This document shows positions 48,316 through 63,839 of a DNA stretch of 64,000 nt, one piece after another. A model generated the notes under the pieces. The model made no database searches, was not told the DNA's origin, and worked only from the letters and a program-made list of their open reading frames with translations. This DNA comes from Aliidongia dinghuensis. Its GTDB lineage: Bacteria; Pseudomonadota; Alphaproteobacteria; ATCC43930; CGMCC-115725. Position 1 is the stretch's first letter, and each line of letters starts with the position of its first letter. The stretch is taken from positions 310,001 to 374,000 of the forward strand of contig NZ_BMJQ01000004.1 of NCBI RefSeq assembly GCF_014643535.1, given 5' to 3'. The position numbers and the translations under genes were made by a program.

Positions 48316-49659
48316 TCAGTCGATGAGGCTCAGGCCTTCGCGCCGCAGCCGGTCGGCGGCGTCGGGGCTGCTCGCGAGTTCGGTCATGCGGACCGCCCAG
48401 TAAAGCTCGAGCATCGCCGCTCCGCGATCGAGGAGCGTGCCGGTGCGGCCACCGACTTTGTCGAACAGGGCCTCGATCCGGCGCCGCACGTCGGCGACGA
48501 GCTTGCCGAGCGTGCCGTCGACCAGGCGGTCGAGCCCGACCCGGCCGGCGAAGGTCTGGCATTTCCGGAGTGCCAGGATGCTGTTCTCGCAGTCGACGAG
48601 TGCCGCGACCGGCGCCTCGGCGCCGAGCGCGACCGCAGTCCGCAATTGTGCCGCCGCATCATCGACCAGACGCGCCACGGCCGCCTCTGCGGTCTTGCGA
48701 GCCTCATGGAGATGCCGGCGCGTGTCCGGGTCGTTCCTCAGCACCCGCTCGGCTGCATCCAGCCCGTGGATCAAGGCGCGCGCGTGATCGGCCATGCCGA
48801 CCAGGTCTTCGCGGCGAACCGTTTCAAGCTGCCGGGCGCGATCGCTCACCTCGCCCACGACGAGGGGCGCCAGGCGATCGAACACCCGGGACCGGTCGGC
48901 CGCCGCGAGCCCGAGCGTCAGGCCCATGAAGCTGTGCAAGAATTCCATGGGCCGGGCCATCCGCACCATGACCGTGAGCACCAGGGCGTAGACCTTGTCC
49001 GGATCGGTGCCGGCGCTTTCTGTGACGATCCGCCGGACCAGCCCCATCTGCGCGTCGCTGAGCGAAGGGATGGGCCGGGCCGGCAGCGCCGCCCTCAAGG
49101 TCTCGACAGCCTCGGCGACCCGGCACAGGGTCTGGATCAGCTTCAGCTCCTCGATAAACCCGGCTTCGGACCCGAGCGCGCGCATCACGGCTACGGGCTC
49201 GGCGGCAAGGGCGGCGAGCGCGTCTGCCGCCCACGGCCAGAGCCGCCGGGCGATGGCCATCTGGCCGACCTCGTCGCCGATCTTGGTTCGGCGGAGCGCG
49301 GCCTCCAGCCGCTTGCGCGGTTCGACGTCGCCCGCCTCGAGCAGGTAGCGCCACAGCGTTGCCGGGAGGCGCCGAGGCAGCAGGCCGGAGCCGGGCGAGA
49401 CGGCGCCGTCGGTCATCAGGTCTTCGAGCGGCCGGTAGAACAGGCGCTGCAGGTTGGGCTTGCGCTGTGGCCGTACCTTCACCAGACGCGGCCGGACGTG
49501 ATCCAGCACCTGCTGAACGCCCGGCACGTGGCGGATCTCTTCGAGCAGCGTGGCGGCCGCGCCGAATTTCTCCTCCGAGATCCGCTCGAGCGGCTGCTTC
49601 AGGCCATCGACGATCGGGAGCGCGTCGCTGGGTGCCTGCTCCGTCGCGCGGTCGGTCAT
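48316..49659 (-). CDS. Unknown 447-aa helical protein coupled to PEP-CTERM gene
   Basis: 447 aa. Predominantly helical with many Ala/Arg/Leu, no membrane segment and no signal. Residues near 60-85 (RPRLVKVRPQRKPNLQRLFYRPLEDL) and a later SFMGLTLGLAAADRSRVFDRLAPLVVGEV look conserved in style but match no family I know. The start overlaps the stop of the PEP-CTERM gene as ATGA, so the two proteins are translated together. Cytosolic role unknown. Confidence 0.7.
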   Translation of the reverse strand: MTDRATEQAPSDALPIVDGLKQPLERISEEKFGAAATLLEEIRHVPGVQQVLDHVRPRLVKVRPQRKPNLQRLFYRPLEDLMTDGAVSPGSGLLPRRLPATLWRYLLEAGDVEPRKRLEAALRRTKIGDEVGQMAIARRLWPWAADALAALAAEPVAVMRALGSEAGFIEELKLIQTLCRVAEAVETLRAALPARPIPSLSDAQMGLVRRIVTESAGTDPDKVYALVLTVMVRMARPMEFLHSFMGLTLGLAAADRSRVFDRLAPLVVGEVSDRARQLETVRREDLVGMADHARALIHGLDAAERVLRNDPDTRRHLHEARKTAEAAVARLVDDAAAQLRTAVALGAEAPVAALVDCENSILALRKCQTFAGRVGLDRLVDGTLGKLVADVRRRIEALFDKVGGRTGTLLDRGAAMLELYWAVRMTELASSPDAADRLRREGLSLID

Positions 49660-50291
49660 GCCTCGGCTCCAGCCCCCTTGCAGGCACGCCGGCGCCAGGC
49701 GAGGAGGCCGGCAAGACCGAGCAGCCCCATGCCGAAGACGGCGAGCGAGCGGGGCTCCGGCAAGGTGGTAGCCGCCTGCTGCGTGATGATCTGGCTGAAG
49801 TTGAAGCTGGCGAGGACGTCGCCGGTCACGACCCCGCCCGTAGAATGGAGCGTGCCGAGACTGAGGCCGGTGACGGTCAGGGATTCAGTGCCGAGCGAGA
49901 AGGTGAGGGGTGCCGCGGTGCCAACGACCAGGGAATCCGTGGTCTTGTTGCTGGACCAGGACCACGGCAGGAGGATGCCCTCGGTCTGCCCGCCGACCGT
50001 GAGGTTGAAGCCGGTGGTGAAGCCCGACGGCGTCTGCGCACAGGTAACGCAGTGCGGGCCCACGGTGAAGGTGTAGGTGCCAAGTTCGACTGAGTCGAGA
50101 TGGGGCGTCGCGTTCGGGTTGACCTTGCCCGAGGTACCGGCGATGACAAACGAATCATAGATCGAACTGTATTCGGCGCCGATGCCGCTGATCGCGAAGC
50201 TGCTTGTCGAATAATCGATGTTGCCGGCCCGAGCGGTATTTGTGAAAGCGACAAACACTCCCGCCAGGGCGAGCAGTCGAACAATTTTCAT
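49656..50291 (-). CDS. PEP-CTERM sorting-domain exported protein
   Basis: 211 aa. Signal peptide to about residue 23 (LLALAGVFVAFTNTARA). The body is beta-rich with Ser/Thr repeats. The C-terminus has LPEP followed by a hydrophobic helix (AVFGMGLLGLAGLLAW) and RRRA, the PEP-CTERM signal read by exosortase. Such proteins are surface or matrix parts. No exosortase lies in the window. Promoter region upstream is AT-rich. Confidence 0.85.
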   Translation of the reverse strand: MKIVRLLALAGVFVAFTNTARAGNIDYSTSSFAISGIGAEYSSIYDSFVIAGTSGKVNPNATPHLDSVELGTYTFTVGPHCVTCAQTPSGFTTGFNLTVGGQTEGILLPWSWSSNKTTDSLVVGTAAPLTFSLGTESLTVTGLSLGTLHSTGGVVTGDVLASFNFSQIITQQAATTLPEPRSLAVFGMGLLGLAGLLAWRRRACKGAGAEA

Positions 50292-53509: not shown

Positions 53510-53698
53510 ATGCTGAAGCTTGTGACTCGCCTCATGAAGGATGATGCCGGTGCGACGGCTCTCGAGTATGGCCTCATCGCCGGCCTGATTTCCCTCGCGG
53601 TCGTGACGGGCGCCACGGCGGCCGGCACTGCCGTCAACACCATCTTCACGGCCATCGGCACGAGGCTCGCCACTGCGGCGACGGCGGTTTCTGCCTAA
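53510..53698 (+). CDS. flp: Flp-type pilin 1
   Basis: 62 aa from ATG 53510 with GGAGAAATAGG upstream. Type IVb prepilin: short leader then G|ATALEYGLIAG, with Glu5-Tyr6 after the cleavage site and a hydrophobic helix. It is the pilus subunit. Followed by a strong hairpin, then a near-copy. Confidence 0.93.
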   Translation: MLKLVTRLMKDDAGATALEYGLIAGLISLAVVTGATAAGTAVNTIFTAIGTRLATAATAVSA

Positions 53699-53761: not shown

Positions 53762-53796
53762 TCCCGAAGAAGAACCCACAACCGATGAGGCAGAAC

Positions 53797-53982
53797 ATGT
53801 CGACCATCGTGTTTTTTTTCCGGGACGATTCCGGTGCGACAGCTTTGGAGTATGGCCTCATTGCCGGCCTTATCTCCCTCGCCATCGTAACGGGCGCCAC
53901 GGCGGCCGGGACAGCCGTGAACAACATCTTCACAGCCGTCGGCACGGCACTCGCCAACGCAGCGGCGGGGATCGCGGCCTGA
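53797..53982 (+). CDS. flp: Flp-type pilin 2
   Basis: 61 aa from ATG 53797 with GAGG 7 nt upstream; ATG 53785 is four codons earlier. Core ATALEYGLIAGLISLA and TAAGTAVN match pilin 1 closely; the leader (STIVFFFRDDSG) differs. Recent duplicate. Followed by another hairpin and T-rich stretch. Confidence 0.92.
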   Translation: MSTIVFFFRDDSGATALEYGLIAGLISLAIVTGATAAGTAVNNIFTAVGTALANAAAGIAA

Positions 53983-54048: not shown

Positions 54049-54125
54049 AAATAAAAAGATCGAATTCAATAGATAATTATTTTGTCTATTTGTCTCGCAA
54101 CTGTCTGGTTTGGCAGGAGAAGCAC

Positions 54126-54968
54126 ATGAAAGCGCGAGGTCTGGCCCTGCTTGGGGTCTCCGCCCTTCTGGGATTTGTCGCGATCGCATGGGTGCAGAAG
54201 CCCCCGGCGCCGAGCGGCATGGTGAAGATCGTCGTTGCGAAGACGGCGCTGAATTTCGGCGACCGCCTTACGCCCGAAAAGCTGCAGCTCATCGAGTATC
54301 CGCCGGCGGCGGTGCCGCCGGGCGCGTTCAACGATATCGAGCAACTCGCCGGTCCCGCCGAGGACCGCGTCGTGCTGCGGACGATCGATCCGGAGGAGCC
54401 GATCCTCGCCAGCAAGGTCTCCGGGACGGGGGGACGAGCCATTCTCTCCACCGTCATCGACAAGGACATGCGGGCGGTCACGATCAGCGTGAACGATGTC
54501 AAGGGCGTCGCCGGCTTCGTGCAGCCCGGCGACCGGGTGGACGTGCTGCTTACGCGCAACACGAACAGCAATGCGCCGGAGGACCAGCGGAACGACATCC
54601 TGCTGCAGAACGTCAAGGTGTTGGGCGTCGATCAGCAGGCCGACGACAAGAAGGACAAGCCGGTCGTGGCCAAGGCGGTGACGCTCGAAGTGACGCCGGA
54701 CGACGGCCAGAAGCTGACGCTCGCGGCCTCGATCGGCAACCTCAGCCTGGCGCTGCGCAATTTCGCCAATCCAGACGCGGTCCAGCCGCGCAGCCTGTCG
54801 GTCGCCGATCTCGTGCCGAGCAAGCCGAAGAACGATCCGACACCGGTGGTCGTCCGTAAGCCCAGCCCCAAGGTGGAAATCCTGCGCGGGACGGACTCGA
54901 CGACCTACGACGTGACCAAGGAGGGCTACCAAGGCGTGCGAGGCGTGCAGACCGCAAGCCGGAAGTAG
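54126..54968 (+). CDS. cpaB: Flp pilus assembly protein CpaB
   Basis: 280 aa from ATG 54126. N-terminal membrane helix (LALLGVSALLGFVAIAWV), SAF/BEAF-like domain with MVKIVVAKTALNFGDRLTPEKL, and the CpaB signature PGDRVDVLLTRN followed by ILLQNVKVLGVDQ. Periplasmic, links the secretin to the pilus. Preceded by the flp2 hairpin. Confidence 0.93.
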   Translation: MKARGLALLGVSALLGFVAIAWVQKPPAPSGMVKIVVAKTALNFGDRLTPEKLQLIEYPPAAVPPGAFNDIEQLAGPAEDRVVLRTIDPEEPILASKVSGTGGRAILSTVIDKDMRAVTISVNDVKGVAGFVQPGDRVDVLLTRNTNSNAPEDQRNDILLQNVKVLGVDQQADDKKDKPVVAKAVTLEVTPDDGQKLTLAASIGNLSLALRNFANPDAVQPRSLSVADLVPSKPKNDPTPVVVRKPSPKVEILRGTDSTTYDVTKEGYQGVRGVQTASRK

Positions 54969-55009: not shown

Positions 55010-56428
55010 ATGGTCCGCAAGCTTCTTTTCGCATTGGCTGTCGCCGCTTCCTTGGCGCACCCGATGCCGGGCTTCACGGCGCAGCCGAGTCAGTCGGTCA
55101 CCGTGACGCCGCAGCCCTCCCTGCAGGCGCCCCAGGCGCTCACCATCGCATTGAACAAGTCGCAGGTGCTGCGCGTCAGCCAGACCGTCGGCCGCATCGC
55201 GGTCGGCAACGCGGCGATCGTCGATGCAGTGGCGCTCACCGACCGGTCGTTCTATCTGCTCGGCAAGGCAGTGGGCACGACCAACCTGTCGGTCTATGGG
55301 CAGAATTCGCAGCTGCTGGCCGTGCTCGACGTGACCGTCGGCGCCGACGTGGACGGCGTCAAGGCGGCGCTGCATCAGATGATGCCGGACGACCGCATCG
55401 AGGTCCGCGCGATCAATGACTCGATCGCGCTGAGCGGCACTGTCGGCAGCCCGGCCAAGGTCACTCAAGCGATGGAAATCGCGCGGAAATTCGTGACTGA
55501 GGATGACAAGGACAAGGACAAGAGCAAGGTCCTCAACAACCTGGGCGTCCGTGGCGCGCAACAGGTCATGCTGCAGGTCAAGGTGGCCGAGATGCAGCGG
55601 AACGTCTCGAAGGCGTTCAACTTCCATCCGTTCATCTCGGCAGGCAAGCCTGGCGCCGGCAACATCGGGGGCAACGGCTTCAAGCTCGCGCCGCTCGATC
55701 CGGTCGACACGAGCAACTTCGCGACCATCGCCGGTTCGGCGGTCGCCGGCAACTTCACGTTCCAGCTGCTGATCGACGCGCTCGAGTCCAAGGGCGCCGT
55801 CAAGATCCTGGCCGAGCCGAACCTGGTCGCCATGTCGGGCGATACGGCGAGCTTCCTCGCCGGCGGCGAGTTCCCGGTGCCGGTCGCGCAGAACACGGCC
55901 TCGGGCGTGCCGACCGTCACGGTCGAGTTCAAGCCCTTCGGCATCAGCCTCGCCTTCACGCCGACGGTGATCGACGATCTGATCAACCTCGTCGTGGCGC
56001 CCGAAGTGTCGCAGATCGACAAGACGAACTCGGTAACCTTCACCGGCTTCACCATCCCGGGCATCGCCACCCGCCGGGCCCGGACGACGGTCGAACTGCG
56101 CGACGGGCAGAGCTTCGCGATCGCCGGCCTGATCTCGAGCGACTTCGACGACACGGTCCGCGGCATTCCGGGGATCATGGACGTGCCGGTGCTGGGCGCG
56201 CTGTTCCGCTCGCCGTCCTATCAGAACAACGAGACCGAGCTCGTGATCATCATCACGCCCCACCTCGTGCAGCCGGCGCCCGCGGGTACGCTCAAGGCAC
56301 CGACCGACAGCTTCGTGCCGCCGTCCGACGCGCAGATCTTCCTGTTGGGCAACACCGAGAACCCGGACTCCGGTCTGCCGCCGAGCAATGGCGGGCTTAC
56401 CGGGCGCTACGGCCACATCATCCGCTAA
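55010..56428 (+). CDS. cpaC: Flp pilus secretin CpaC/RcpA
   Basis: 472 aa from ATG 55010. Signal peptide, N-terminal pilus-assembly domain (NKSQVLRVSQTVGRIAVGNAAIVDAVA), then the secretin domain: VMLQVKVAEMQRNVSKAF, LVVAPEVSQIDKTNSV, and VPVLGALFRSPSYQNNETELVIIITPHLV. It forms the outer-membrane channel. Confidence 0.94.
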   Translation: MVRKLLFALAVAASLAHPMPGFTAQPSQSVTVTPQPSLQAPQALTIALNKSQVLRVSQTVGRIAVGNAAIVDAVALTDRSFYLLGKAVGTTNLSVYGQNSQLLAVLDVTVGADVDGVKAALHQMMPDDRIEVRAINDSIALSGTVGSPAKVTQAMEIARKFVTEDDKDKDKSKVLNNLGVRGAQQVMLQVKVAEMQRNVSKAFNFHPFISAGKPGAGNIGGNGFKLAPLDPVDTSNFATIAGSAVAGNFTFQLLIDALESKGAVKILAEPNLVAMSGDTASFLAGGEFPVPVAQNTASGVPTVTVEFKPFGISLAFTPTVIDDLINLVVAPEVSQIDKTNSVTFTGFTIPGIATRRARTTVELRDGQSFAIAGLISSDFDDTVRGIPGIMDVPVLGALFRSPSYQNNETELVIIITPHLVQPAPAGTLKAPTDSFVPPSDAQIFLLGNTENPDSGLPPSNGGLTGRYGHIIR

Positions 56429-56444
56429 CGCTGGGAGTGTTCCG

Positions 56445-56720
56445 ATGAAACGCCTGATCCTCCTCGTCGGCCTCGCCCTCAGCGGCTGCGCCGATCCGCA
56501 TGAGCCGCTGTCGCGGGACTTTGGCAACGCCGTGAACAGCAACATCGCGGCCCAGGTGATCAATCCGACGCCGCAATGGAGCGGCGACCCCAGCACCAAC
56601 GGGCAGCGCGTGGACAACGCGGTCAACCGCTACCTGAACAACAAAGTCTACCGGCCGCTGCTGCCGCTCGAGGGCGGGAAGGTCTACGACCACACGTCCG
56701 AACAGTCGCAGCAGCAGTAA
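56445..56720 (+). CDS. Short CpaD-like pilus lipoprotein
   Basis: 91 aa, ATG 56445. Lipobox LALSGC with Cys15. RDFGNAVNSNIAAQVINPTP followed by NGQRVDNAVNRYLNNKVY matches the C-terminal end of CpaD, which is usually above 200 residues. The N-terminal domain is absent. It may stabilise the secretin. Family call is from pattern only. Confidence 0.6.
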   Translation: MKRLILLVGLALSGCADPHEPLSRDFGNAVNSNIAAQVINPTPQWSGDPSTNGQRVDNAVNRYLNNKVYRPLLPLEGGKVYDHTSEQSQQQ

Positions 56721-56761: not shown

Positions 56762-58396
56762 ATGCGACGCTTCTTTGCTTGCTCCTCCGGCGGCGTGGCG
56801 GTTTCAACAGCATTCCTGCTGACCATGCTGATCGGGCTCACCGGGCTCGCCGCCGAGGCAAGCCTCTGGTTCCAGACGAAGCGCTCGATGCAGGGTGCCG
56901 CCGATGCCGCTGCGGTGAGCGCCGCGCGGGCACTCACCGCCGGCACCGGCTCCTGCGTCAGCGGTTCCGCCTGCAGCTGGACGCCGGGCCTCAACGGCCT
57001 GTCGGTGGCGGCCGAGGATGGCTGGAAGAACAGCGGCACGAACGGCGTTCAGGTGACGGTTGTCTCGCCGCCGACGAAAAGCGGTTCCCCGTTCTACGGC
57101 AACGCGAACGCCGTCGAGGTGTGGATCACCCAGACGCAGACGATCATGCTCGGCTCGGCTCTGAACGTGTCCGCGCCGAAGATCGGCGCCTATGCCATCG
57201 CCGTGAGCACGACGACGCAGACGGAGGGCGCCGACTGCGTCCTGGCGCTTGCGAACGATCCCGCCGCTGTGACGGTCACCGGCGTTGGCGACCTCAGCGC
57301 CAATTGCGGCATCGCGATCGACGGCGGCAAGGATCAGAACGTCAGCGGCACGCCGCAGGGCGGCATCTCGTTCAACGGCTCGAAGGCGAAGGTCAACATC
57401 ACCAACCTGGTGGTGGCCTCGATCAGCACCAACTGCCCCAGCGCCTCCCATTGCTTCCTCTATAATTCGTCGAGTGTCCTGCCCGCGTCGTCGGTCATCA
57501 CGAGCACCGCAACGGTCGATCCCTACGCATCGATGGTGTTCCCGACGCCGCCGCTGGGCGTGCAATCTGCCACCGTCAGTGCCCAAGGCAGCGGCTACAC
57601 CAATGGCACGCGGACCTTCACCGTGACTGGCGGGACCGGGACGGCCGCCAAGATCACCGCAACCGTCTCGGGCGGCAAGGTCACGGCCATCACCGGCATC
57701 AGCGATCCCGGCGCCTACACGGCGATGCCGACGAGCCCCGCAACGGCGACACCGGACACGGGCGGCGGGTCGGGCGCGAAGTTCACGCTGACCGAGGGCT
57801 GCTTCACTTGGGCTGGCACCGCGATCCCCGGCCGGAAATATTGCTCGATCAACCTCAATGGTTCCGGCACGACCAATTTCCCGGCGGGCAGCTATTACAT
57901 CGCCGGCGGCGACGGCGGCTGCCAGGGCTTCTGCGTCTCGAGTGCCCAGGCCACCGTTACGTCCGATAACGCCGGCGTGACGTTCTACCTGACCCACGGC
58001 GAGGGCTCGGGTACCTACGGCACAAGCTCCTATGCGACGATCGGTGTCACCAGCGGCACCATCACGCTCTGCGCGCCCGGCACGTCCTGCGGCACCGGCT
58101 GCAGCGGCACGTGCGTGCTGTTCTTCCAGGACCGGGCAGCACCGGCATCCACGTCGAACGGAGCGCCGTCGAGCACGAACAATACCTTTGCCGGCAACGG
58201 CCAGCGGACGTTCTCCGGGCTGATCTATATGCCGGAGCAGACCATCACCATGCAGGGGACCTCCGGGATCAGCGGCTGCACGGGGCTCGTGGCGAAATAT
58301 GTCTCCGTCGGCGGCACGCCGAGCTTCACGAACGGCTGCCTGCCGGGCAACGGGATCGGCGGCGGGACGATCACCACCACGTCCCTATCGGAATAG
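56762..58396 (+). CDS. TadG-like pilus-associated protein with inserted repeat module
   Basis: 544 aa from ATG 56762. N-terminal GGVAVSTAFLLTMLIGLTGLAAEASLWFQ with a membrane helix and TKRSMQGAADAAAVSAARAL is the TadE/TadG pattern without the Glu5. The rest is Ser/Thr/Gly-rich with many Cys pairs. Around residues 280-345 lies GSGYTNGTRTFTVTGGTGTAAKI and VSGGKVTAITGISDPGAYT, a repeat typical of phage tail/adhesin proteins. Likely surface-exposed or periplasmic. Confidence 0.75.
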   Translation: MRRFFACSSGGVAVSTAFLLTMLIGLTGLAAEASLWFQTKRSMQGAADAAAVSAARALTAGTGSCVSGSACSWTPGLNGLSVAAEDGWKNSGTNGVQVTVVSPPTKSGSPFYGNANAVEVWITQTQTIMLGSALNVSAPKIGAYAIAVSTTTQTEGADCVLALANDPAAVTVTGVGDLSANCGIAIDGGKDQNVSGTPQGGISFNGSKAKVNITNLVVASISTNCPSASHCFLYNSSSVLPASSVITSTATVDPYASMVFPTPPLGVQSATVSAQGSGYTNGTRTFTVTGGTGTAAKITATVSGGKVTAITGISDPGAYTAMPTSPATATPDTGGGSGAKFTLTEGCFTWAGTAIPGRKYCSINLNGSGTTNFPAGSYYIAGGDGGCQGFCVSSAQATVTSDNAGVTFYLTHGEGSGTYGTSSYATIGVTSGTITLCAPGTSCGTGCSGTCVLFFQDRAAPASTSNGAPSSTNNTFAGNGQRTFSGLIYMPEQTITMQGTSGISGCTGLVAKYVSVGGTPSFTNGCLPGNGIGGGTITTTSLSE

Positions 58397-58407: not shown

Positions 58408-58878
58408 ATGAGCCTTCGACATCTGCTGCATCGGGACGAGGGGGCGGTTGCCGTTGAACTGGCGCTGATATCGCCGTTCCTGCTGCTGCTGCTCTTCGCC
58501 ATCTACGACTTCGGCACGTTGTTCGTGAACGACATGGAAGTCATACACGCGACACAGGCCGCAGCGACCTATGCACGCAAGGCCTACATCGTCAACGGCT
58601 CGGTCACGCTCAGCAACATCCAGTCGGCCGCCACGACGTCGACGCCGCTTACGGTGACGATCAGCGCAGACCCGCACCGTTCGGCCCTGGTCTGGTGCGG
58701 CGCCCCGGCGTCGGACGGCAATTCCGTTCTGACGGATAGCGGGAAAAGCCCGCCCTGTCCGAGCGGCGACCTTACGTTTTTGAGCATCGTCGGCACGGCG
58801 CCCAGCCAGAGCACGCTCGGTTCCTGGAGCGGTTTTCCGTCGACGCTCGCGTGGAAGATCCTGATCCCCGCTCAGTGA
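58408..58878 (+). CDS. tadE: TadE-family pseudopilin
   Basis: 156 aa with TAGGAGG before the ATG. Prepilin-like site EG|AVAVELALISPFLLLLLFAIYDFG with Glu5. Second half is Ser/Thr-rich. Minor pilin of the Tad machine. Confidence 0.88.
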   Translation: MSLRHLLHRDEGAVAVELALISPFLLLLLFAIYDFGTLFVNDMEVIHATQAAATYARKAYIVNGSVTLSNIQSAATTSTPLTVTISADPHRSALVWCGAPASDGNSVLTDSGKSPPCPSGDLTFLSIVGTAPSQSTLGSWSGFPSTLAWKILIPAQ

Positions 58879-58888
58879 GAGGCGACCC

Positions 58889-59287
58889 ATGCGACTTGCC
58901 CGCGACGAAAGGGGAGCAGCGGCCATCGAGGCGGCCCTGGTCCTGCCGTTCTACCTGGCCTTCATCTTCGCCACGATCGAACTCGGCAACGTCATTTGGA
59001 ACTATACAAGTATCCAGTACGTCGCCGACGAGGTTTCACGCTGCAACATGGTCAGCAACTGCAATATTTCGACCGCAGCCTATAACGGTGCCGCCAATAT
59101 TTGGGCCTCGTCCTCGGCCGCGTCGAGTGAAATTACGGTCGGCACCTGCAGTTTCCCGGGCAGCATCTCGGGCACGAAAGTCACGATCGTCCACCCGATC
59201 ACATCGCTGACCGGTTATTTCCCGAAGGTGATGCCATCGCCGTTCAGCCAGATCGCGGTGCAGTCCTGCTACCCGAATCCGAACTGA
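58889..59287 (+). CDS. tadE: TadE-family pseudopilin, second
   Basis: 132 aa. RG|AAAIEAALVLPFYLAFIFATIELGN with Glu5. Four cysteines downstream (CNMVSNCN and others). Ten nt after the previous gene. Probable minor pilin. Confidence 0.88.
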   Translation: MRLARDERGAAAIEAALVLPFYLAFIFATIELGNVIWNYTSIQYVADEVSRCNMVSNCNISTAAYNGAANIWASSSAASSEITVGTCSFPGSISGTKVTIVHPITSLTGYFPKVMPSPFSQIAVQSCYPNPN

Positions 59288-59337
59288 CGGATATGCGTGC
59301 TTAGTTTTTGGTCGACAAGCGAATTTTGGAGAGAACG

Positions 59338-60705
59338 ATGCTTGCTTCACTCTTGGGCCGGAAAGCCAACGCCGCCATCGCCGCCGACATGCAGGCGGGC
59401 ACGCCGCAAATCTGCATCGCCGCGTCGCAGCCATCGTTCGTAGACCTCAAGGTGCGGCTGCATCAGCAGCTGATCGACATCCTGGATCTGCCGGTCGTCG
59501 AGCGGACGCCGCGCGAGCAGCTGGAGCAGGAGGTCGGCGGCATCATCCGCGAGATGCTGAAGCGCGAAGCCGGGTTCCAGTTCTCCGAGCAGGATCGCCG
59601 GCAGCTGATCGCCGACGTGCTCGACGAGCTCCTGGGCTTCGGCGCGCTCGAGCCGCTGCTCAAGGACCCGACGGTGAACGACATCATCGTCAACACCTAC
59701 GGCCAGGTGTGTGTCGAGCGGTGCGGCAAGATCGAGGTCACGACCGTCCATTTCAAGGACGACGCCCATCTGCTGCGCATCATCAACAAGATGGTCGCCG
59801 AGGTCGGCCGCCGCATCGACGAGAGCCAGCCGATCGTCGACGCCCGGCTCAAGGACGGCTCGCGCATCAATGCGGTGATCTCGCCCGTTGCGGTCGACGG
59901 GCCGCTGCTCTCGATCCGCAAGTTCGCCAAGGAGCCGTTCGACCTGGCCCGCCTCATCGCGACCGGCTCGATCACGCCCGAGGTCAGCAGCGTCCTCGAC
60001 GCCATGGTGCGCGGCAAGCTCAACATCCTGATCTCGGGCGGCACCGGCTCGGGCAAGACGACGCTGCTCAACGCCATGTCGGGCTGCATTCACCACAGCG
60101 AGGCGATCGTCACGATCGAAGACGCCGCCGAACTGCAGCTGCAGCAGCCGATGGTGCGGCGCATGGAAACCCGGCCGCCGAATGTCGAGGGGCGGGGCGA
60201 AATCACCCAGCGCGATCTCGTCAAGGCAGCGCTCCGCATGCGCCCGGACCGCATCATCCTGGGCGAGGTACGCGCCGGCGAGGCGTTCGACATGCTGCAG
60301 GCGATGAACACGGGCCATGAAGGCTCGATGAGCACCATTCACGCCAACTCGCCGCGCGATGCCTTGAGCCGGCTCGAGCAGATGATCGGCATGGCCGGCT
60401 TCGACATGGCGCCCCGCACCGTCCGGCAGCAGATCGCCTCGGCCATCCACATCGTGCTGCAGCTGACGCGCGGCTCCGACGGCCGGCGGCGGGTCATCTC
60501 GGTCCAGGAAGTGACCGGCATGGAAGGCGAGGTGATTTCGATGAACGAAATCTTCCGGTTCCGCCGGACCTCGACCGACGCCGACGGCAACATCCACGGC
60601 TTCTTCGAATCGACGGGCATTCGCCCGAAATTCGCCGAAGAGCTCGACAGCCTCAACGTCTCGATCCCGACCGATCTCTTCGCGCCGCATCGGCGGCTCG
60701 AATAG
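59338..60705 (+). CDS. cpaF: Tad pilus ATPase CpaF/TadA
   Basis: 455 aa from ATG 59338. Secretion ATPase: Walker [10 protein letters not shown] at residues 234-242, [19 protein letters not shown], Asp box [13 protein letters not shown], Walker [39 protein letters not shown] with the His box. Drives pilus assembly. Confidence 0.95.
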
Positions 60706-60716
60706 GAGGGCCGCCC

Positions 60717-61649
60717 ATGAGCTCGCTCATCCTCTATGTCGTCCTGGTCGGCGCCATCTTCGCCCTGATCCAGGGCTGGTTCGTGTTTACCGAGGACATG
60801 CGCGAAGAGGCGAAGGTTGCGGCGAACCAGCTGCGGCTGAGGCGCCCAACGCTCGCCGACGGCGTCTCGCCCTGGCTGCGTGAAATCCTGCTGACGGCAC
60901 CGATCCGCGGCTTCGACAACCTGGTGCAGACCTGCGGCCTGACAGTACGCACGGAGCGGGTTCTGCTCACCATGACGCTGCTCACAGTCCTGGTGGTCGT
61001 CGTGGCGGATCTGCTGACCTTCAATCCGCTCGCCAGCGTCAGCGCCGGGGCGGGCCTCGGCATCCTGCTGCCGCTGTTCCTGCTCACCCGGCTCCGGGCG
61101 CGCCGGATGAAGAAGCTGACGCGGCAGCTGCCCGAGACGCTCGATACGATGGTGCGCTCGCTCAGGGCCGGCCATCCGATCCCGCCGTCGATCGCCATGA
61201 TCGCCCGGGAAATGCCGGCGCCGATCGGCGGCGAGTTCAAGCGGGTTTACGACGCCATGTCGTATGGCCTCGACCTGCGCGACGCGCTCACCAAGATGAC
61301 GGAGCGCCTGCACACGGTCGAGGAGCTGAAATACATCGTCTCGGCGATCCGGATTCAGTCCCAGACTGGCGGCAATCTCGCCGAAATCCTGGCGTCCTTG
61401 GCGACGCTCATGCGGGACCAGCAAAAACTCAAGATGAAGGTGAAGGCGATTTCCGCCGAAGGCCGGATGTCCGGCAATATCCTTGCGGCCCTACCGGTCG
61501 GCGTCGTGTTCCTTCTGAATATTATGAATCCTGAATACTACAGAGGGATTATGGACGACCCGATTCCGGCCTGCATCTTGGGGTTTGCCGTATTTTTGGT
61601 GGTCGTCGGCTACGTGATGATCCGGCGGGTCGTCAATATTCGGGTGTGA
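60717..61649 (+). CDS. tadB: Tad pilus inner-membrane protein TadB
   Basis: 310 aa. T2SSF domain: QLPETLDTMVRSLRAGHPIPPSIAMIARE and GGNLAEILASLATLMRDQQKLKMKVKAISAEGRMS. Several membrane helices at both ends. Partner of TadC. Confidence 0.92.
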   Translation: MSSLILYVVLVGAIFALIQGWFVFTEDMREEAKVAANQLRLRRPTLADGVSPWLREILLTAPIRGFDNLVQTCGLTVRTERVLLTMTLLTVLVVVVADLLTFNPLASVSAGAGLGILLPLFLLTRLRARRMKKLTRQLPETLDTMVRSLRAGHPIPPSIAMIAREMPAPIGGEFKRVYDAMSYGLDLRDALTKMTERLHTVEELKYIVSAIRIQSQTGGNLAEILASLATLMRDQQKLKMKVKAISAEGRMSGNILAALPVGVVFLLNIMNPEYYRGIMDDPIPACILGFAVFLVVVGYVMIRRVVNIRV

Positions 61650-61656
61650 GGGCGCC

Positions 61657-62535
61657 ATGTTCAACCTGTCGTACATTCTGATGTTCCCGGCAGCTGCGGC
61701 GTTTGTCTTCGGCATCGCCACACTGTTCGAGAAAAGGCCGGTCGTGGCGACGATTCGCCTCGGCAAGCCGTCCAGCGGTCTTCTGGCCTATTTCGGACGC
61801 CGCTTTCAGGCGAGCGAAAAGGAGCGGCTGACCAACCGCGTGTGGCTGCTTCAGGCTGGATTTGAGGGGCCGGAGACGGTGCAGGATTACACGACGATCC
61901 GGATGCTGCTGATGGTGGCGCTGCCGCTCGTCACTTCGGCGGTCCTGCCGTTCGTCAAGCCCGACATCACGCTCAGCAACACGGTCATGTTTGCGTTGTT
62001 CGCCGCCGCTCTCGGGCTCATTGCCCCGCTGATGTACGTCAGCAGCCGGCGGGCCCGCAATCAGCAGGCGGTGCGCGAAGGCCTGCCGGATGCGCTCGAT
62101 CTGCTGCTCGTCTGCGCCGAGGCCGGCCTCGGCCTCGACACCGCCATCCTCAAGGTCGGCGAGGAGCTGGCCACGATGCACCCGGTCATCTCGAAATATC
62201 TCTTGCACATCAGCAGCGAGCTGCGTGCCGGACGCCCCCGGGCCGAAGCCTTCCGCAGCTTCGGCGACCGCACCGGCATCCAGGAGACGACGTCCATGGT
62301 CAACCTGCTGGTGCAGTCCGATCAGCTCGGCACCAGCATGGCGGCGACGCTCCGGGCCTTCGCCGACGACATGCGGGCGCACCGGCTGCTCAGGGCGGAG
62401 GAGCTCGGCCAGAAGGTTGCCGTCAAGCTCACCATCATCCTGGCCACCTGCCTGCTGCCGGCGCTGATGATCGCGATCCTGACGCCGGTCGGAAACAAGA
62501 TTCTGCACACCTCCTTCAAGGCGCTCCTGCAATGA
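61657..62535 (+). CDS. tadC: Tad pilus inner-membrane protein TadC
   Basis: 292 aa. T2SSF domain: GLPDALDLLLVCAEAGLGLDTAILKVGEEL and VNLLVQSDQLGTSMAATLRAFADDMR. Stop overlaps tadD start as ATGA. Confidence 0.92.
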   Translation: MFNLSYILMFPAAAAFVFGIATLFEKRPVVATIRLGKPSSGLLAYFGRRFQASEKERLTNRVWLLQAGFEGPETVQDYTTIRMLLMVALPLVTSAVLPFVKPDITLSNTVMFALFAAALGLIAPLMYVSSRRARNQQAVREGLPDALDLLLVCAEAGLGLDTAILKVGEELATMHPVISKYLLHISSELRAGRPRAEAFRSFGDRTGIQETTSMVNLLVQSDQLGTSMAATLRAFADDMRAHRLLRAEELGQKVAVKLTIILATCLLPALMIAILTPVGNKILHTSFKALLQ

Positions 62536-63839
62536 GATACGCCCCGCTCGCCACGACCCTGCTCGTTGCCGCGTGCGGCGGCACGATGATGCCCGAAGTG
62601 CGCCCGCTGCCGATGCCGGCATCCACCGAGCTCACGCCCTTCGCCGAGGCCTACCAGGCTGGCAAGGACCACCTGAGGGCGGATCGCGCCGGCCTCGCCA
62701 TCGTGATGTTCGAGAAGGCGCTCGCCATCGACCCGACGTCGGTCGCCGCACTCAACGCAATCGGTGCCGCCTATGACGAGCTGCATCGGCCGGATGTCGC
62801 GAAGACCTATTACACGAAGGCGCTGGCCCTCGAGCCGAACGGCGCCGACACGCTCAACAACATGGCGATTTCGGCGGCGCTGGCGGGCGACGCCGCCGCG
62901 TCGCGCGAGCTGCTCGCCCAGGCGGCATCGATCGATCCGGCCAATCCGACTATCCGCGGCAACATCCAGGTCGCCGACAGCAAGCCACCGGAAGCACCTG
63001 AGCCGCCGGTCGACGAGGATGCCAATCGGCCGCGGCTCGACCGCACGGGACTGCAGGAACTGACACTGCGCCTCCCGGCCGGCGCGTTTGCGCCGAGGGA
63101 TGGCGGCGTGCCGATGGAAATCGGCTACGCGAATCGCGATCCGCTGGCACCGATAGATACGATGTCCATTACGGCCGCGGCGCTCACCGATCGGCACCCT
63201 GTCACGATCGAACGCTTCGCCGCCGACGACAAGCGGCTCGCCCCGTCCGCCAATGGCACGCCGACCCTTGCCGCCGTTCAGCTCGCGGCCCTGCGCGGTG
63301 GGCAGATCAGTCTCGCGGGCCTGGTGCCGTACGACCCGACGCCGCGCACGCCCGTCATGAGCGAGGCGCTGGCGCCGCCCCAAGGCGCCCGAGCGGAGAA
63401 CGGGCACGCGCGGGTCATCGCCGCGGCCGTCACGCTACCGGCCCCGGCAACGGTGCCGAGCCCGGTCGATGCCGCTCGCCCGACCGCCGATGTCGCAAAA
63501 CCGGCGCCCTTGGCGACGCCGGCGCCGGCGCATTGCGCGCTAGAGGTTTCGAACGGCGCCGGCCGGGACGGGATGGCGCGGCGCGTGCGGGACTTCCTGA
63601 CTGCGCACGAGATCGCCGCCGGCCGGCTGACCAACGCCACGAGCTTCGATCACGCCGAGACGACGCTGTTCCATCGTCCCGACGCTGAGGCGACGGCACG
63701 CCAGTTGGCCGGGCTCCTGCCGAATGCTGTCGTGCTTCGCGCCGACCCGGACTTGGGCTGCGCCGTCCGGCTCGAACTTGGCCGCGATCTGCTGCCGTTC
63801 GACGGCCAGCTCTCGAAGCCGAATCATGACGCCCAGTAA
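62532..63839 (+). CDS. tadD: TadD-like TPR lipoprotein with LytR_C end
   Basis: 435 aa. Lipobox VAAC. TPR repeats (AIVMFEKALAIDPTSVAALNAIGAAYDELHRPDVAKTYYTKALALEPNGAD). Long Pro/Ala-rich linker. C-terminal CALEVSNGAGRDGMARRVRDFL to LGCAVRLELG resembles LytR_C. Pilotin-like assembly factor of the secretin. Confidence 0.82.
   Translation: MRYAPLATTLLVAACGGTMMPEVRPLPMPASTELTPFAEAYQAGKDHLRADRAGLAIVMFEKALAIDPTSVAALNAIGAAYDELHRPDVAKTYYTKALALEPNGADTLNNMAISAALAGDAAASRELLAQAASIDPANPTIRGNIQVADSKPPEAPEPPVDEDANRPRLDRTGLQELTLRLPAGAFAPRDGGVPMEIGYANRDPLAPIDTMSITAAALTDRHPVTIERFAADDKRLAPSANGTPTLAAVQLAALRGGQISLAGLVPYDPTPRTPVMSEALAPPQGARAENGHARVIAAAVTLPAPATVPSPVDAARPTADVAKPAPLATPAPAHCALEVSNGAGRDGMARRVRDFLTAHEIAAGRLTNATSFDHAETTLFHRPDAEATARQLAGLLPNAVVLRADPDLGCAVRLELGRDLLPFDGQLSKPNHDAQ

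Follow-up and report, generated by a model that had tools for sequence, protein, structure and literature searches.

The TadG-like protein encoded at 56762–58396 (+) of the window, the 64,000-nucleotide stretch of Aliidongia dinghuensis DNA analysed here, carries an 80-amino-acid block that is a real and uncommon insertion. Both the insertion of this module and its homology to a GxGYT beta-repeat of phage virion proteins are well supported. We lean slightly towards the explanation that a Tad minor pilin, one probably placed at the pilus tip, took up a promiscuous surface module of the virion/adhesin kind, which would be displayed there as a spacer or a ligand-binding knob.

The TadG-like gene and its tad locus

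The gene is an open frame with a 544-aa product, whose N-terminus (aa 10–57) matched the Pfam domain Tad (PF13400) at 26.2 bits against a cut-off of 22.3. It is encoded in a tad locus beside TadE/TadF, the position by which a TadG is recognised, and the gene order of the locus is Flp pilins, CpaB, secretin, small protein, TadG, two TadE-type genes, CpaF, TadB-like, TadC-like and a TPR protein. A sequence-only reading had placed the repeat within a pilus-associated protein, and the Tad domain and the tad locus bear this out. A cytosolic protein is ruled out by the same two features. The features of the locus are as follows.

53510–53698 (+): Flp-type pilin 1, from an inner ATG of the 53465 frame; G-ATALE-Y pilin signature seen by eye
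53785–53982 (+): Flp-type pilin 2; pilin signature seen by eye
54090–54968 (+): CpaB/RcpC (PF16976, 116.4 bits); the start may be an inner codon
54992–56428 (+): CpaC/RcpA secretin (PF00263, 154.9 bits)
56388–56720 (+): small protein with a faint resemblance to CpaD (PF09476, 13.0 bits, below the cut-off)
56762–58396 (+): TadG-like minor pilin gene, 544 aa; open frame, Pfam Tad above the cut-off
56789–56932 (+): Tad N-terminal domain of TadG, aa 10–57, membrane/pilin-type helix (PF13400)
57227–57559 (+): first part of the beta-helix region, aa 156–266, with a conserved DPY motif (alignment; structural match over aa 156–526)
57560–57799 (+): inserted GxGYT beta-repeat module, 80 aa, aa 267–346 (PHROG matches, shuffle controls, viral relatives, absence in relatives)
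57800–58393 (+): remainder of the beta-helix region, aa 347–544, DUF7305-like near the end (Pfam, alignment, structural match)
58408–58878 (+): TadE-like minor pilin (PF07811, 38.2 bits)
58889–59287 (+): second TadE-like (TadE/TadF) minor pilin (PF07811, 46.4 bits)
59308–60705 (+): CpaF/TadA ATPase (PF00437, 209.8 bits)
60717–61649 (+): TadB-like platform protein, by position and sequence, by eye
61657–62535 (+): TadC-like platform protein, by position and sequence, by eye
62532–63839 (+): TPR/LytR_C protein at the end of the locus (PF13399, PF07719)

Outside its own genome, the closest named relatives of CpaF were from a MAG labelled Alphaproteobacteria (63%) and from Dongia (60%). Elsewhere in the window, 49656–50291 (-) encodes a secreted-looking protein of 211 aa with a C-terminal anchor that looks PEP-CTERM-like by eye. 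The genome also contains a second tad locus on another contig (C6, L191 1178-8875; assigned by eye) with genes for CpaF, TadB/C-like proteins, a TPR protein, a TadG of 438 aa, a TadE-like protein, a second TadE-like protein and a CpaE-like protein, and this TadG paralogue does not contain the GxGYT block.

Beyond its pilin part, the window TadG has a large C-terminal extension that includes the beta-helix region (aa 156–526). Near its C-terminal end a DUF7305 match scored 17.7 bits, below the gathering cut-off of 27, and DUF7305 was matched at E ≤ 0.1 in six of 12 relatives. The protein contains 17 cysteines, compared with a median of eight and a maximum of 13 in 59 relatives; some of them lie near the block (225, 231 and 347) and several in extra loops, and the high count would fit an elaborated, disulfide-stabilised outer face.

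An AlphaFold model of the whole TadG was weak (mean pLDDT 55), which we think is because the aligner misplaces the module, and a Foldseek search with it returned nothing significant. VIA-align of the Foldseek candidates, on this pLDDT-55 model, superposed aa 156–526 on ice-binding proteins in sixteen rows with Z of at least 12.1, the best being 4nuh (Z 14.0, 190 residues aligned, rmsd 3.0). The same model matched ComZ (6qvi) at Z 12.7 over 316 residues with an rmsd of 11.7, and the next row had a Z of 8.3. We take the matched ice-binding structures to be of the DUF3494 type, a discontinuous beta-helix, and no Pfam match to that family was found by sequence in the window TadG or the relatives tested. 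Outside the block, the modelled protein thus appears to resemble a pilin-like N-terminal part followed by an ice-binding/ComZ-like beta-helix. The module modelled alone was all-beta (pLDDT 65.8), and this model gave no BFVD match at E ≤ 0.001 and no PDB match at Z ≥ 2 among eight chains. Searched by sequence against solved structures, the module and the TadG profile returned only weak, unrelated rows.

Homology and distribution of the GxGYT block

The peptides on which the sequence-only reading was based lie at aa 267–346 of the open frame, confirming a repeat block in a TadG-like protein. The view that this is a real beta-repeat also stood, and its extent was corrected to 80 aa (about 15% of the 544-aa TadG), consisting of two degenerate units of the GxGYT beta-repeat, or half-repeats. 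Searched alone against PHROG, the block matched 12 families at E ≤ 1, mostly virion structural ones; the best was 'tail fiber' (E 7e-5), followed by baseplate wedge, head decoration and head closure families, and two of the 12 were families of function not known. The controls (nine shuffles and one reversal) gave a single match in total, to an unrelated family. The first half of the block weakly matched five virion families and the second half one, also weakly. Plain pairwise alignment shows no likeness between the halves, as 618 of 2000 shuffles reach the score; the profile relatives are the basis of the two-unit reading.

A profile of the module made without the window sequence scored 55.9 bits on aa 268–339 of the window TadG, and a scan of viral contigs found four relatives (loci L167–L170). 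The L167 protein was identical to the block at 41 of 80 positions over its whole length, with a score of 182 compared to a maximum of 68 in 1000 shuffles, and all eight repeat segments tested, from seven loci, scored above their own shuffles. A chance low-complexity match was ruled out by the scrambled and reversed controls, the shuffle scores and the profile scores. The L167 carrier is a 348-aa protein encoded between the terminase and portal genes of a phage contig; gene order alone points to a virion role for it, since it matched no PHROG family and tblastn of the protein found no match in phage records. On the same contig (L167:160-2619), part of the interior of the terminase frame resembles an intein by eye. 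With the module alone, tblastn gave no match in phage records (E ≤ 1 and E ≤ 10) or in plasmids.

The block and the four viral repeats were combined into a profile for a class-wide search of 386 genomes at E ≤ 1e-4. The results showed carriers in four genomes: the window TadG (by construction), a protein of genome G135, and two tail sheaths with the repeat inside them (G250 and G280; phrog_23, E 4e-60 and 1e-92). PF13400 was found in 152 of these 386 genomes, and two of the 152 had a Tad protein with the GxGYT repeat. In the phylum, 397 sampled genomes were searched at E ≤ 1e-6 with a nine-row profile (four rows from the class hits), and seven matched. Besides the window TadG and G280, these comprised a third tail sheath with the repeat (G499, E 8e-42), an open frame of 19,427 aa in which the part read contains bacterial Ig domains (G474, L182), two frames of 15,434 and 15,251 aa with no Pfam match in the part read (G434, L184; G428, L186) and a frame with matches to DUF2460 and a phage glycoside hydrolase family (G743). 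The Ig-rich frame looks like an adhesin. Together with the PHROG matches, these carriers agree with the earlier assignment of the block to the tail and adhesin kind.

Closer to the window, a search of the order matched 11 of 43 genomes at E ≤ 0.1, with a best match beyond the window's own gene of E 0.0026, and only that gene carried the repeat above a weak match. The two loci read among the order matches were L026, where the repeat ends a protein that is not a TadG, and L029, which had no evident repeat carrier; a tblastn search of phages with the L026 segment returned weak rows only (best E 0.09), some annotated as baseplate wedge. In its own genome the repeat occurs as one copy, plus a weak row on contig C39 (E 0.68). 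Recent acquisition of foreign DNA was considered and rejected on composition: the GC of the module is 0.704 (mean 0.670, sd 0.034) and its GC3 is 0.875 (0.889, sd 0.050).

The G135 carrier is a 754-aa frame with a Tad match of 35.6 bits, about six GxGYT repeats and a vWA-like part recognised by eye (Pfam VWA_2 14.0, below the cut-off). The two genes preceding it matched TadE (43.9 and 45.3 bits), the second also weakly TadF; the genome is flagged as 10% contaminated, but the contig is 273 kb. As judged from its sequence, this appears to be an independent case of the repeat in a differently built TadG, at another place in the protein.

Relatives of the window TadG were gathered by a family search with the window protein (12 of 39 genomes matched), a class search with a profile of these 12 relatives (53 of 386 genomes matched) and CpaF loci, which together provided 59 full-length TadG proteins. 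The profile lacking the window sequence found nothing at E ≤ 10 in any of the 59, nor in the window TadG after removal of the block; across the 149 frames of the fetched loci that matched the TadG profile, its best score was 8.5 bits (E 0.14). A search of genome contigs yielded 29 candidate stretches, none of which was a relative. The sequence-only reading would have been contradicted by a module present in all TadG proteins, and the module was found in 0 of 59.

Placement and possible role of the module

In the explanation that we favour, the gene encodes a large TadG-type minor pilin. Together with the two TadE-type minor pilins encoded next to it, this protein would be anchored through its N-terminal helix, and the beta-helix of its C-terminal part would project from the end of the pilus. 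The two-unit repeat, drawn from a pool of accessory modules in phage virions and giant adhesins, has entered the loop that leads from the conserved DPY motif to the next beta-helix strand. There it may serve as an added weak-binding or spacing knob, changing what the pilus attaches to. Accessory repeats in phages are often thought to bind surfaces weakly. The tip position, the surface exposure and the binding or spacing role are suggested by analogy with published tip pilins and modular pilins, and the lack of the block in near relatives implies that it may change what this pilus holds on to.

The chief alternative to binding is that the module acts simply as a spacer. It would then be real and exposed and would have no ligand, being a neutral spacer kept by drift in a loop that tolerates inserts, which we consider unlikely. 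Of 61 rows of the TadG profile, 59 span 377–460 aa and the two longer ones, L147 (552 aa) and L148 (514 aa), carry unrelated large inserts in the same DPY loop, indicating that this loop is insertion-tolerant. The L147 insert (G264:C67:12500-17500), in a TadG-like frame of 598 aa from a genome flagged as 8% contaminated, is about 150 aa of almost pure Asp/His/Gly and is possibly metal-binding; that of L148 (G346:C1:2812500-2820500) is different and Thr-rich. The restriction of the module to one of 43 genomes of the order above a weak match also favours a neutral spacer, as does the fact that we know of no conserved ligand motif for the GxGYT module. However, neither the frame nor the repeat consensus is disrupted, as the profile score indicates, and the G135 TadG acquired the same type of repeat elsewhere in the protein.

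Another alternative, which we regard as rather improbable, is that this TadG is a membrane-anchored pilus-assembly helper of the periplasm or outer surface and not a tip pilin, so that the module acts in the envelope. In its favour, the prepilin-peptidase site of the window TadG has Ser at +5 of the Tad helix instead of the canonical Gly followed by Glu at +5, and Glu at +5 was found in one of 58 TadG rows (window protein included; crude first-Gly pattern), while the neighbouring TadE and TadF do show G-x4-E by eye. Against it, published models put TadG-like minor pilins in a TadE/TadF tip complex (PMC12075869, PMC12607857, PMC13170226), and the large beta-helix pilin ComZ was argued to fit only at the tip (PMC6561018).

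Profile scoring does not fix the exact insertion point: removing 68–84 aa at several sites within aa 189–354, upstream sequence included, gave similar gains in the profile score (120 to 205 or 129 to 220 bits), and MAFFT can align the second half of the module (ISDPGAYTAMP) with the DPY region of the family. Both results would fit a DPY loop of the family's own that diverged and lengthened in place, its resemblance to phage proteins being convergence of Gly/Thr-rich beta-sequence, but this is very improbable given that the true DPY is retained at aa 253–255 right before the block, with a Cys right after it as in most relatives, that native loops of the window TadG and of four relatives had no virion match in PHROG, and that the native loop aligned to L167 with a score of only 28. 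Because L167 matches the whole stretch and not the native loop, aa 267–346 is preferred as the insert.

Outside the window TadG, the repeat was found mainly in tail sheaths, in other proteins of virions and in very large frames rich in repeats, and the inserted module would therefore link pilus tips with phage structural proteins. More tentatively, and with rather less than even confidence, we propose that Tad tips and the virions of tailed phages share a mobile pool of display modules, the GxGYT repeat having been inserted at least twice independently into TadG proteins (beta-helix here, vWA in G135) as well as into sheaths, virion proteins and giant adhesins, and that bacteria may re-use virion modules to retarget pili.

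Comparison with known systems

Modular minor pilins are already known, and this protein would add to them a TadG bearing a repeat of virion type, for which G135 supplies another example of different build. The literature covered, at the level of titles and abstracts, described no phage-type repeat in TadG. The case is a concrete and testable one of Tad tip customisation: the genome has two tad loci, with the module in one TadG paralogue and not in the other.

It has been proposed that minor pilins of the TadG kind assemble with TadE and TadF into complexes at the pilus tip and display variable domains there (PMC12075869, PMC12607857, PMC13170226); AlphaFold models and genetics are the basis of this placement (PMC12075869, PMC12607857). 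The KilN/TadG tip complexes (PMC12075869) resemble the present case in having a large Tad minor pilin beside TadE/TadF with a variable C-terminal domain proposed to be tip-exposed, whereas the window protein combines an apparently ice-binding-type, beta-helix-like scaffold with a virion-type repeat, which the accessible text does not mention for KilN/TadG. CpaL of Caulobacter (PMC12607857) is likewise described there as a Tad minor pilin with a large C-terminal domain and a beta-rich stretch inserted in its main domain. That main domain is a vWA with MIDAS, whereas the window TadG showed no such CpaL-type vWA (no Pfam VWA match at E ≤ 1); the G135 protein is closer to CpaL in layout than the window TadG is.

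ComZ of Thermus thermophilus (PMC6561018; 6qvi) is a pilin with a large beta-solenoid and an argued tip location. In contrast to the window TadG, ComZ belongs to a type IV competence pilus and binds DNA, the abstract mentions no GxGYT module, and the rmsd of the structural match implies a different arrangement of domains. Attaching modules to minor pilins is an established strategy, and PilB-type modular pilins likewise display a functional module joined to a pilin; the vWA of PilB comes after the pilin module, whereas the window module lies within the C-terminal domain of a Tad minor pilin (PMC8179133). The accessory repeats of phages (tail sheath phrog_23, tail fibre phrog_5342, baseplate wedge and head closure) are the same repeat by sequence; those occur in virions, whereas the repeat of the window lies in a bacterial pilus protein.
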